From Halopiger xanaduensis SH-6 (lineage in GTDB: Archaea > Halobacteriota > Halobacteria > Halobacteriales > Natrialbaceae): a stretch of 64,000 nucleotides of DNA. Position numbers and translations under genes: made by a program. Positions 9,079 to 48,330 of this stretch are shown here, piece after piece (within the stretch, counting starts at the first letter, position 1; each line of letters opens with the position of its first letter). Where the stretch lies: positions 1-64,000 of the forward strand of contig NC_015666.1 in the NCBI RefSeq assembly GCF_000217715.1, in the 5' to 3' direction. The notes under the pieces were generated by a model. It saw nothing but the letters and a program-made list of their open reading frames with translations. It had not been told where the DNA came from and ran no database searches.

Positions 9079-9165
9079 ATGGCGCGAGATTCGTTCTCAA
9101 CGCCGGACGAGGATAGAGGAAGTCGGGGCAACCCGGCTGGGCGTGAAATTCCGCGACGAACGTAG
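9079..9165 (+). CDS. possible 28-codon leader ORF upstream of the LeuA/CimA-type gene
   Basis: ATG at 9079 opens a 28-codon ORF (MARDSFSTPDEDRG then SRGNPAGREIPRRT) ending with TAG at 9163-9165. It overlaps the GTG start of the synthase (9143) in another frame, so the two could be translationally coupled. The promoter-like TTTAAG at 9045 would place the mRNA 5' end almost at this ATG. The peptide is not rich in Leu, Ile or Val, so a classic attenuation peptide is not supported. It may be a coupling or regulatory ORF, or may simply be untranslated leader. Confidence 0.35.
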   Translation: MARDSFSTPDEDRGSRGNPAGREIPRRT

Positions 9166-44836: not shown

Positions 44837-45934
44837 CTAGTAGCCGCGTTCGATCAGGTAGTCGGCGATGTCGAACAGCAGTTCGCGCGCCTCGTTGTCC
44901 GGGAGGACCTCGAGGCGCTCTTTCCCCTGGGCGACCAGGTCGCGAGCCATCTCGTTGGCGTAGCCGATCGAGCCCGCCGCCTCGAGTTCGGCGACGGCGT
45001 CGTCGATCTCGGCCTCGGTGACGGCGTCGACGTCGTTGGTGTCGACGAGCGACTCGACGTCGACGCCCTGCTCGCGGGCGTGGACCGTGATCAGCGTCTG
45101 CTTGTTCTCGACGAGGTCGCTGCCGCGCTGCTTGCCGAGTTTCTCGCTCGGCACGGTCAGGTCCAGCACGTCGTCCTGGATCTGGAACGCGCGGCCGATG
45201 TCGAGCCCGTAGCCGTAGAGCGCGTCGATCGTCTCGTCGTCGGCGCCCAGCAGGACGGCCGGCAGACACGCCGACGCGGCGTAGAGCACGGCCGTCTTCT
45301 GCTCGACCATCTCGAGGTACTCGTCGGGCGTGACGTCGGTGCGCTCCTCGAAGGTGACGTCCAGCGACTGGCCCTCGCAGATCTTCGTGCAGGTCGTCGC
45401 GAGGATGTCCAGCGCCTCGACCGCGCGCTCGGGTGCGGCGCCGGTCTCGAGCATGATCTCGAAGGCCTTCGAGTAGAGGGTGTCGCCCGCGAGGATCGCC
45501 GTCTCGAGGTCGTACTCGCGGTGGACAGCGGGGACGCCGCGGCGGAGGTCGTCGTCGTCCATGATGTCGTCGTGGATCAGCGTGAACGACTGGATGACCT
45601 CGACGCTGACGGCGGCGTCCATGAGGTCGATCGCGTCGGGACCGTCGGCCCCGTCGGAACTCGAGACGCCGTCGATTTCGCCGGCGCCGTACAGCGTCGG
45701 AAACTCGCGGTAGTCGGCCGTCAGCGGCTCGGCGTCGACCAGCGATTCGCCGGCCGTCAGCAGGACGGTCGGTCGGAGTCGCTTGCCGCCCGCGTCCAGC
45801 AGGTAGCGGGACGCCTCGTAGAGCCGCTCCGGTTTCTGAATCGGCAACTCCTCGGGAATCGCGTCGTTAACGCGCTCGCGGCGCTTGCGAACTGCCTCGA
45901 GTACCGCCTCCTCTCGTGCCTCGGGAGTCGTCAT
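44837..45934 (-). CDS. idsA: polyprenyl (geranylgeranyl/farnesyl) diphosphate synthase
   Basis: Encodes 365 residues. It has the first Asp-rich motif DDIMDDDD, GDTLYSKAFE, and the second Asp-rich motif region FQIQDDVLDLTVPSEKLGK, both binding Mg-diphosphate. It condenses isopentenyl diphosphate with allylic diphosphates; in haloarchaea it supplies C20/C25 chains for ether lipids. The start is 11 bases after RNase J stops, so the two form an operon. Chain length cannot be assigned with confidence. Confidence 0.93.
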   Translation of the reverse strand: MTTPEAREEAVLEAVRKRRERVNDAIPEELPIQKPERLYEASRYLLDAGGKRLRPTVLLTAGESLVDAEPLTADYREFPTLYGAGEIDGVSSSDGADGPDAIDLMDAAVSVEVIQSFTLIHDDIMDDDDLRRGVPAVHREYDLETAILAGDTLYSKAFEIMLETGAAPERAVEALDILATTCTKICEGQSLDVTFEERTDVTPDEYLEMVEQKTAVLYAASACLPAVLLGADDETIDALYGYGLDIGRAFQIQDDVLDLTVPSEKLGKQRGSDLVENKQTLITVHAREQGVDVESLVDTNDVDAVTEAEIDDAVAELEAAGSIGYANEMARDLVAQGKERLEVLPDNEARELLFDIADYLIERGY

Positions 45935-45945
45935 GGCGATCAGTA

Positions 45946-47298
45946 TCAGTCCACGAGCTGGATGAGGTTGCCGTTGCGCGTGACGTGGAGGTCGCGCCCC
46001 ATCTTGTACCCCTCGCTCTCACAGAGGTTGACGTAGCTCGAGAACCCGCTCAGGTCCTGGTGGGCCGGGATGACGTGCTGGGGCTGCAGGGCGTCTAGCA
46101 TCTCGTAGTGGCCCTCCTGGCAGAGGTGGCCCGAGACGTGGATGTCGTCGTAGATGCGGGCGCCCTGCATGCCGAGCAGCTTCTCGGCCTGGTAGCGCTG
46201 GCCCTCGTTGGTCGGCTCGGGGATGACGCGGGCGGAGAAGACGACCTTGTCGCCGTCGTCCAGCTGGTACGGCGTCTCGCCGCGGGCCATCCGAGTGAGC
46301 ATCGCGCGCGGCTCGCCCTGGTGGCCCGTGACGACGGGCAGGAAGTTCTCCTTGCCCTCGTTCATGATCCGCTTGAACGTCCGGTCGACGGACTTGCGGT
46401 GGCCGAACATCCCCAGGTCGTCGGGGAAGTCGACGAAGTCCAGGCGCTCGGCGGTTCCGGAGTACTTCTCCATCGAGCGGCCCAGCAGGACGGGCTGGCG
46501 CCCGATGTCCTTGGCGAACTCGACCAGCGACGTCACGCGCGAGATGTGACTCGAGAAGGTCGTCGCGACGATGCCGCCGTCGTAGTCCTCCATGCTGTAG
46601 AGGACGTCCCGGAGGTGCTCGCGGGCGACGTTCTCGGAGGGGGTGCGCCCCTTCTTGTTCGCGTTGGTACAGTCCTCGATGTAGGCGAGGACGCCGTTGC
46701 CCTCGCGACCGATCTCGCGGAACCGCTCCATGTCGATCGGGTCGCCGATGACCGGCGTGTGGTCCATGCGTTTGTCAAGCCCGTAGACGACCGCGCCCTC
46801 GGGCGTGTGCAGGACCGGGTTGATCGCGTCGATGATCGAGTGGGTGACGTTGACGAACTCGAGTTCGACCTGCCCGCTGTCGCCGATCGACATCGTTTCG
46901 CCGGCGTCCATCTTGATGAGGTCGTTCTCGACGCCGAACTTCTGCTCGCCCTCGATCTGCTGTTTGACGAGTTCGATCGTAAACGGCGTCGCGACGACCG
47001 GCGCGTTGTACCGGTGGGCCAGCTTCGAGATGGCCCCGATGTGGTCGAGGTGGCCGTGCGTGGGCACGATGGCCTGCACGTCGCCCTCGAGGTCGCTCAT
47101 GATCCGATCGTCGGGGATTGCTCCCATGTCGATCAGATCGAGACTGTGCATCCGTTCGGTTTCGACGTTGTCGTGGATCAGGACCTGCGAGAGGTTCAGA
47201 CCCATGTCGAAGATGACAACGTCGTCGCCGGCGCGGACGGCAGTCATCTGCCGTCCGACTTCTTCGTAGCCGCCTATGGTTGCGATTTCGATTTCCAT
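45946..47298 (-). CDS. rnj: ribonuclease J (archaeal, 5'-3' exonuclease/beta-CASP)
   Basis: Encodes 450 residues. It shows the metallo-beta-lactamase/beta-CASP motif HGHLDH (residues 81-86), then [46 protein letters not shown] and [16 protein letters not shown]. This is the archaeal RNase J family (aRNase J), a 5'-3' exoribonuclease active on 5'-monophosphorylated RNA in the cytoplasm. It has its own promoter (47496-47502) and an exceptionally structured ~175-base leader, and it precedes idsA by 11 bases. Confidence 0.94.
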
Positions 47299-47401
47299 GG
47301 TTCGTTGTACTGAAAGCCGCGTTCGTGGCTCTCATCGAAACGGTCCGCGGACTAGTGGTTATGCGGCCCCGGCGTCTTACAGCGCGTCGGCCATCCCGCT
47401 A

Positions 47402-47453
47402 TGCGTTCGGACGGCGAATCCGCCGTTGCTCACAACCGTGAGCCCCGAACGCA
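47402..47453 (-). promoter_or_regulatory. three-way-junction RNA structure in the rnj leader
   Basis: On the minus strand TGCGTTCGG (47453-47445) pairs perfectly with CCGAACGCA (47410-47402). Two hairpins stand inside: GCTCAC-GGTT-GTGAGC (47443-47428) and ACGGCG-GATT-CGCCGT (47426-47411). One unpaired base separates the outer stem from the first hairpin (47444) and one separates the two hairpins (47427). All 21 base pairs are perfect Watson-Crick pairs. Given the promoter at 47496-47502, the junction would lie ~20 bases from the mRNA 5' end. Confidence 0.75.
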
Positions 47454-47491
47454 CTTGCCCGCGGGTCTCGGTATGTACCCTTACACGCCCG

Positions 47492-47506
47492 GGTGTTAAA
47501 AACACC
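47492..47506 (-). promoter_or_regulatory. promoter/operator-like palindrome for rnj
   Basis: GGTGTTAAAAACACC (plus strand) is a perfect inverted repeat with a TTTTTAAC core on the minus strand, which serves as the TATA-like box (47502-47496). Predicted transcription start about 47473. Overlap of a palindrome and a TATA box is a typical haloarchaeal repressor arrangement. Confidence 0.5.
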
Positions 47507-47574
47507 GTGGGTTGATCCTGTCCGATTCTCGAGGTGAGAACGATCGACGGTGGCGACTCCCTCAGGTCGAAGCG

Positions 47575-48330
47575 CTACTGACTGAGGTAGCCACCCTCGA
47601 CGCCGAACCCTTCGCCGGTGACGAACGACGCCTCGTCGCTGCACAGCCAGACGACGGCGGCCGCGACCTCCTCGGGCGTGCCGAGTCGGTTCATCGCGTG
47701 CATACCCTCGATCTGCGCTCGCTCCTCGTCGGACAGCGACTCCTCGATCAGCGGCGTTTCGATGAAGCCCGGACAAACGCTGTTGATGCGAACGCCGGTC
47801 TCACCGTTCTCGAGCGCGGCGCTTTTCGTCAGCCCGAGGACGCCGTGTTTGGCGGCCGAGTAGGCCGACGACGTCGCGAAGCCGACCTTGCCAAGGATCG
47901 AGGAGTTGTTCACGATGGCGCCGCCGGACTCCTGGTCTTTCATCCGCTCGAGTTCGGCTTTCATGCAGTTGAACACGCCGACGAGGTTCACGTCGATGAC
48001 CTGCGACCAGTCCTCGGGCGCGTACTCGTCGACCGGCGCCCGCTCGCCGCCGATGCCGGCGTTGTTGAACGCGCAGTCGAGACTCCCGTACTCGTCGACT
48101 GCTGCGTCGACCATCGCCGCGGCCGACTCGGGGTCGGCGACGTCCGTTTCGACGAAGATCGCGTCGCCGCCGGCGTCCTCGATCGAGTCGACTGTCCCCT
48201 CGCCGCCGTCGACGTCCAGATCCGCGACGACGACGTTCGCCCCGCGCTCGGCGAACTCGAGGGCCGTTTCCTGTCCGATTCCCGAGCCACCGCCAGTGAC
48301 GACCGCCGTCGCTTGATCGATCGAAACCAT
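47575..48330 (-). CDS. SDR family oxidoreductase
   Basis: Encodes 251 residues from the ATG at 48330 (MVSIDQATAVVTGGGSGIGQ). Motifs are GGGSGIG, FNNAGIGG, catalytic Ser in NNSSILGK, YSAAKHG, and SVCPGFIETP. Similar to glucose-1-dehydrogenase/3-oxoacyl reductase-like SDRs; substrate unknown. It sits between isopentenyl phosphate kinase and RNase J, where most haloarchaea that I recall have no gene, so it is probably an accessory insertion into the cluster. It has 95 bases before it and a separate promoter for rnj behind it. Confidence 0.9.
   Translation of the reverse strand: MVSIDQATAVVTGGGSGIGQETALEFAERGANVVVADLDVDGGEGTVDSIEDAGGDAIFVETDVADPESAAAMVDAAVDEYGSLDCAFNNAGIGGERAPVDEYAPEDWSQVIDVNLVGVFNCMKAELERMKDQESGGAIVNNSSILGKVGFATSSAYSAAKHGVLGLTKSAALENGETGVRINSVCPGFIETPLIEESLSDEERAQIEGMHAMNRLGTPEEVAAAVVWLCSDEASFVTGEGFGVEGGYLSQ

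Follow-up and report, generated by a model that had tools for sequence, protein, structure and literature searches.

The gene for RNase J (rnj) lies on the reverse strand of the window, that is, of the whole 64,000-nt stretch of DNA analysed here, and was identified by a match to TIGR00649 above the cut-off. Its upstream neighbours encode a short-chain dehydrogenase (SDR), an isopentenyl phosphate kinase and a mevalonate kinase, and the next gene downstream is of the idsA type, an rnj-idsA adjacency that recurs in nearly all loci with the main RNase J copy. The SDR gene (47575-48321, minus strand) sits between the isopentenyl phosphate kinase gene and rnj, and, among the 80 named loci, a close homologue occupies the same place only in Haloterrigena salina (L082). 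The typical activity of the RNase J family is that of a 5'-3' exonuclease, and the enzyme of Haloferax volcanii, an organism without an exosome, is essential and has endonuclease activity (PMC10470531). Between the promoter of rnj and its start codon lies a folded RNA, referred to below as the class A leader. The features of the locus, all on the minus strand, are as follows.

44837..45934, minus strand: idsA-type geranylfarnesyl diphosphate synthase, next downstream gene, 11 nt past rnj
45946..47298, minus strand: RNase J (rnj, beta-CASP ribonuclease), 450 aa; ATG 12 nt past P5
47299..47473, minus strand: class A RNase J leader RNA, match to covariance model R1 (175.6 bits, E 8e-43)
47311..47334, minus strand: P5 hairpin, UGAGAGCC / GGC-UUUCA, with double changes in most pairs
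47337..47352, minus strand: P1 3' strand, GUCCGCGG-ACC-GUUUC, from the covariation analysis
47356..47398, minus strand: P3 (47398-47396 with 47358-47356), 82-84% of cells paired
47365..47392, minus strand: P4 hairpin, GGCC-GA-CGnGC-UGYAAGAY-GCCG-GG-GGCC, with loop UGUAAGAC (47381-47374)
47401..47408, minus strand: P2 3' strand, GAACGCAU, from the covariation analysis
47411..47443, minus strand: two crown hairpins (47443-47428 and 47426-47411), form kept, sequence and number variable
47447..47454, minus strand: P2 5' strand, GUGCGUUC, holding most of a 9-bp outer stem, with double changes in all 8 pairs
47457..47469, minus strand: P1 5' strand, GAGAC-CCGCGGGC (consensus GAAAC-CCGCGGGC), at the predicted mRNA 5' end, 95-99% of cells paired
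47496..47502, minus strand: TATA box TTTTTAA within GGTGTTTTTAACACC

The leader begins some 25-30 bp past the TATA box and extends as far as the start codon of RNase J, a length of about 165-175 nt; its consensus fold comprises five helices (P1-P5), of which P3 is short and the weakest (its third pair is absent in the window) and P5 ends about 12 nt ahead of the AUG. Alignment upstream of the start codon gave a conserved order of elements, GAAACCCGCGGGCAAGUGCGnnCG - variable hairpins - CGnnCGCAUAGCGGGAUGGCCGACGCGCUGUAAGACGCCGGGGCC...GUCCGCGGACCGUUUCGAUGAGAG...GCGGCUUUCAGU...AUG, in which the variable stretch is exactly the interior of a three-way junction. This junction was the subject of the earlier note, and its 52 nt (47453-47402, minus strand: UGCGUUCGG GGCUCACGGUUGUGAGC AACGGCGGAUUCGCCGU CCGAACGCA), which lie 103 nt upstream of the RNase J gene, do fold as claimed there: the outer stem has 9 bp, each of the two hairpins has a 6-bp stem and a 4-nt loop, and two bases of the junction are unpaired. 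The folding energy is -32.8 kcal/mol, compared with a mean of -18.25 (sd 3.01) for shuffled sequences (z = -4.83), and 0 of 200 shuffles were as stable. The view of the junction as the sole structure, placed near the 5' end of the transcript, has to be corrected, however: it is the P2 subdomain of the larger P1-P5 fold (47469-47311), and the predicted transcript 5' end adjoins P1 instead. Nor is the junction conserved as a unit, its crown hairpins being the least conserved part: of the 76 class A leaders scored, 54 have two hairpins, 20 have one and 2 have none (8 further leaders deviated from the pattern), and the mean fold z is about -2 in 25 of those scored. Judging from these counts, the crown retains its form, not its sequence, in most species and has been lost in some.

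Among the near genomes, RNase J was present in 40 of 41 and the upstream DNA in 21, and an alignment of 30 genomes showed conserved blocks, with the leader 72-80% identical in many relatives. A plain MAFFT alignment comprising 37 leaders shows standard pairing in 95.6% of the pair cells and changes on both sides in 10 pairs. The model-fitted alignment A3 (55 distinct sequences, including those of Halogranum, Haloprofundus and Salinarchaeum) has 94.5% standard cells over 40 pairs and double changes in 24 of these pairs, amounting to 103 cells vs. 18 ± 4 in shuffled and at most 21 in slid controls; being fitted to the model, A3 leans towards it, and hence the unfitted MAFFT alignment, which agrees, is the more independent test. 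Base pairs covary strongly and are maintained by compensatory change, as in a conserved leader. P1 is mostly invariant and its support therefore comes mainly from conservation, with few double changes. Alignments and covariation both uphold one part of the earlier note, namely that a conserved, covarying RNA stands at the start of the predicted RNase J transcript, and its stems are conserved and covary in close relatives. A chance hairpin in GC-rich DNA was considered separately and is ruled out by the shuffles and the covariation. The P4 core is found again in other families and its loop, UGYAAGAY, is near-invariant; the loop of the window (UGUAAGAC, 47374-47381, minus strand) is a candidate T-loop, fitting the pattern UNNRA. 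In the leader of Natronosalvus hydrolyticus (L116), about 70 nt are inserted after the core and before the P1 3' strand, and the terminal parts are retained.

The covariance model R1, built from 37 leaders, gave 66 matches in 65 of the 116 Halobacteria genomes searched, among them 27 of the 28 genomes of the window's family; RNase J itself is present in 116 of 116. A comparison of coordinates places 65 of the 66 matches immediately 5' of RNase J and in the same orientation; the gap from the end of the model to the rnj start codon is 0-16 nt in most of them, and the sole match away from rnj is weak (E 0.004). No match was seen outside Halobacteria, all 18 matches in 197 genomes of the phylum being haloarchaeal. 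The RNA thus holds a fixed position 5' of one gene and on its strand, as a conserved leader does, and that gene is the ribonuclease's own, as with autoregulatory leaders of the rne type. This linkage, together with the small gap, is therefore the pattern of a cis leader and argues against the free small RNA that had also been suggested for the locus; that is, instead of an RNA unlinked to one downstream gene, we found linkage only to rnj, with a near-zero gap. A cis-acting structured 5' leader of the rnj-idsA mRNA is, in our view, a well-supported reading of these comparisons.

An archaeal TATA box usually lies at a fixed distance from the transcript start. Of 73 class A leaders, in which the spacing from the first TATA base to P1 ranges over 32-35 nt, 53 have a spacing of 33 nt; the corresponding value is 32 nt in 22 of 27 leaders of a second class (class B, below). 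This spacing, combined with the usual archaeal distance, leads us to predict a transcription start at about 47472 (±2), i.e., about 2-4 nt ahead of P1. The 5' end is thus predicted to be recessed beside a helix in every class of leader; in classes A, B and C alike, it would fall within about 2-4 nt of a long-range helix. The promoter block AACCCACnGnGTTTTTAACACCnGGnGTGTAG (47480-47515, minus strand) is conserved well past the TATA box across families and may contain a regulator site.

Many RNase J genes without class A carry another folded leader, and we distinguish two further classes, B and C, characterised by alignment and motif counts only; some leaders match none of the three (e.g., L072 and L073). 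Class B is found in Halosimplex, Halovenus, Halomarina, Halocatena and most of another family (L192-L211, L125-L130, L138 and L143-L152). These leaders start with AACCGAG, so that CCGAG stands at the 5' end, and CUCGG follows 8-11 nt before the AUG in 33 of 33; they have a 5' hairpin (e.g., GGUCGCCC/GGGCGACC, with the compensated variant GGCCGCCC/GGGCGGCC), and a Shine-Dalgarno (SD)-like GGAG overlaps the 3' strand of P1, here the closing helix just ahead of the AUG, in 25 of 36. Class C is found on second RNase J copies and combines AACCGAAA...GUCC at the 5' end with GGAC...UGAUCGG placed 8-12 nt ahead of the AUG, with the closing pairing CCGA...UCGG, compensated as CCAA/UUGG in L227. Such second copies, about 76-90% identical and with their own conserved class C leader, occur at L056, L058, L059, L062 and L064-L066, and further ones at L068, L069, L071, L131, L135, L218, L220 and L227-L231. 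Within the named set, class C is represented by two loci, L131 and L135; neither is followed by idsA, as opposed to the main-copy loci, which are. Since these loci still have a leader, RNase J and not the isoprenoid gene is the factor shared among them, and service to the downstream isoprenoid gene in particular, one of the options raised in the earlier note, is disfavoured, these copies carrying leaders of another type.

Searches of Rfam 15 gave no gathering-level match at the locus, a single chance match outside the fold at E<=5, and no match to known riboswitch aptamers at the locus; leaders of classes A, B and C at other loci likewise matched nothing. A known family was thus ruled out, since a limit as wide as E<=5 yielded nothing at the locus beyond chance. 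We found no published description of the leader in the open-access literature, to which the search extended (subscription papers were outside its scope). Hence, class A represents a new RNA family, apparently undescribed. Among haloarchaeal cis-regulatory RNA families, leuA-Halobacteria RNA (RF03001) is of a likewise kind but is 53 nt long, belongs to a different gene and does not match the RNase J leader; one copy lies elsewhere in the window (9102-9154, plus strand, 70.7 bits). Structured ncRNAs and riboswitch-related RNAs of Thermococcales (PMC3124441) are likewise covarying structured RNAs in Euryarchaeota, but they lie at other loci, and RNase J is named there only as a possible processing enzyme. 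The majority of haloarchaeal mRNAs have no leader (72% in Haloferax), and structured leaders were judged atypical there (PMC4983044), a point against the feedback model proposed below.

Structured leaders on ribonuclease mRNAs are a known kind in bacteria. The Escherichia coli rne 5' UTR serves RNase E autoregulation (Diwa 2000 and Schuck 2009, as cited in PMC10989929), and in E. coli and its relatives it is, like the RNase J leader, a long, structured and conserved cis leader on the mRNA of a central ribonuclease. The two differ in enzyme, domain of life, sequence and fold, and the predicted 5' end of the RNase J leader is closed by a long-range helix; moreover, the rne leader senses the enzyme in E. 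coli, whereas feedback through the RNase J leader is what we infer. In the Synechocystis rne 5' UTR (PMC10989929), the RNase acts on its own leader, as proposed here for RNase J, but through a U-rich cleavage site and premature termination, and with no fold similar to the RNase J leader.

Building on the observed structure, covariation, conservation, rnj-only linkage and fixed TATA spacing, we propose the following model. Transcription would begin about 2-4 nt ahead of P1, which would tie the 5' end to sequence shortly before the start codon and enclose the hairpin-crowned P2 and the conserved P4, with P5 coming last, before the AUG. At low RNase J levels, the mRNA would be shielded from 5'-end-dependent decay by its recessed, paired 5' end and would be translated; when RNase J is in excess, it would bind or cut its own leader and open it, leading to removal of the mRNA. 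RNase J, an essential enzyme in Haloferax, would in this way be under negative feedback. Given that the leader appears to conceal the 5' end and is confined to RNase J genes, it is best read as a control element for the amount of RNase J, and probably, by analogy with the bacterial cases, one whose most likely sensor is RNase J itself. Structural conservation does not name the sensor. Taken as a whole, a cis leader with a P1-closed 5' end and negative feedback by RNase J is the explanation we lean towards, with modest confidence.

The main rival to this feedback is that the leader acts as a passive 5' shield or as a translation-initiation scaffold, protecting the 5' end or positioning the ribosome with no sensing of RNase J. 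The predicted recession of the 5' end in P1 in all three classes would suit such a role, as would the placement of P1 or P5 8-16 nt ahead of the AUG and the overlap of the SD-like GGAG with P1 in class B. The occurrence of three unlike folds also speaks against feedback as the sole function, for which a single persisting fold might have been expected. However, a plain clamp needs neither the near-invariant loop of P4 nor the crown of P2, and would leave the confinement to RNase J genes unexplained; we consider this alternative unlikely, though worth keeping in mind. Quite improbable, in our judgement, is a switch that adjusts rnj-idsA expression to another signal, be it a metabolite, an ion, salt or some protein besides RNase J, for instance in connection with isoprenoid supply. 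The compact multi-helix fold with conserved loops does resemble aptamers generally and rnj and idsA are nearly always adjacent at main-copy loci, but second RNase J copies without idsA also have folded leaders, of another class, and the class A RNA stands at no other gene in the 116 genomes, save for the one weak match. It is harder still to see in it an independent small stable RNA gene that lies before rnj by chance, given that, despite its own strong promoter and compact fold, the gap to the start codon is usually only 0-16 nt, no conserved promoter motif lies in between, and dispersed copies are missing.

Two further alternatives carry very little weight. Translational attenuation by a five-codon upstream frame, AUG GCC GAC GCG CUG UAA (47394-47377, minus strand), which overlaps P4, could draw on the in-frame AUG or GUG kept in 55 of 64 distinct leaders and on the stop right after CUG in 39, but Halogranum, Haloprofundus and some other leaders have the RNA core and no start codon, the codons coincide with conserved paired bases, and the stop is missing in CUGCAA variants, all of which makes this explanation a very doubtful one. 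The least credible is that the palindromes CCCGCGGG and GTCCGCGGAC, nearly invariant and palindromic as DNA, bind a regulator as double-stranded operators with the RNA fold incidental, as the compensatory changes in P2, P4 and P5 track RNA pairing and are unexplained by DNA binding.

Returning to feedback by RNase J, if it holds, the class A leader would be an archaeal version of the bacterial ribonuclease-leader kind. A broader idea, which we put forward tentatively as a serious possibility, is that haloarchaeal RNase J genes are under feedback through structured leaders, which would have originated as, or split into, no fewer than three folds (A, B and C), all of which would close the 5' end against the region before the start codon; if true, archaea would have their own equivalent of the ribonuclease autoregulation known from bacteria, centred on 5'-end access. 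The class A leader supplies a new RNA family for annotation and, as a conserved leader of about 170 nt on the essential RNase J gene, offers a named RNA at which to test how RNA decay is controlled in archaea.
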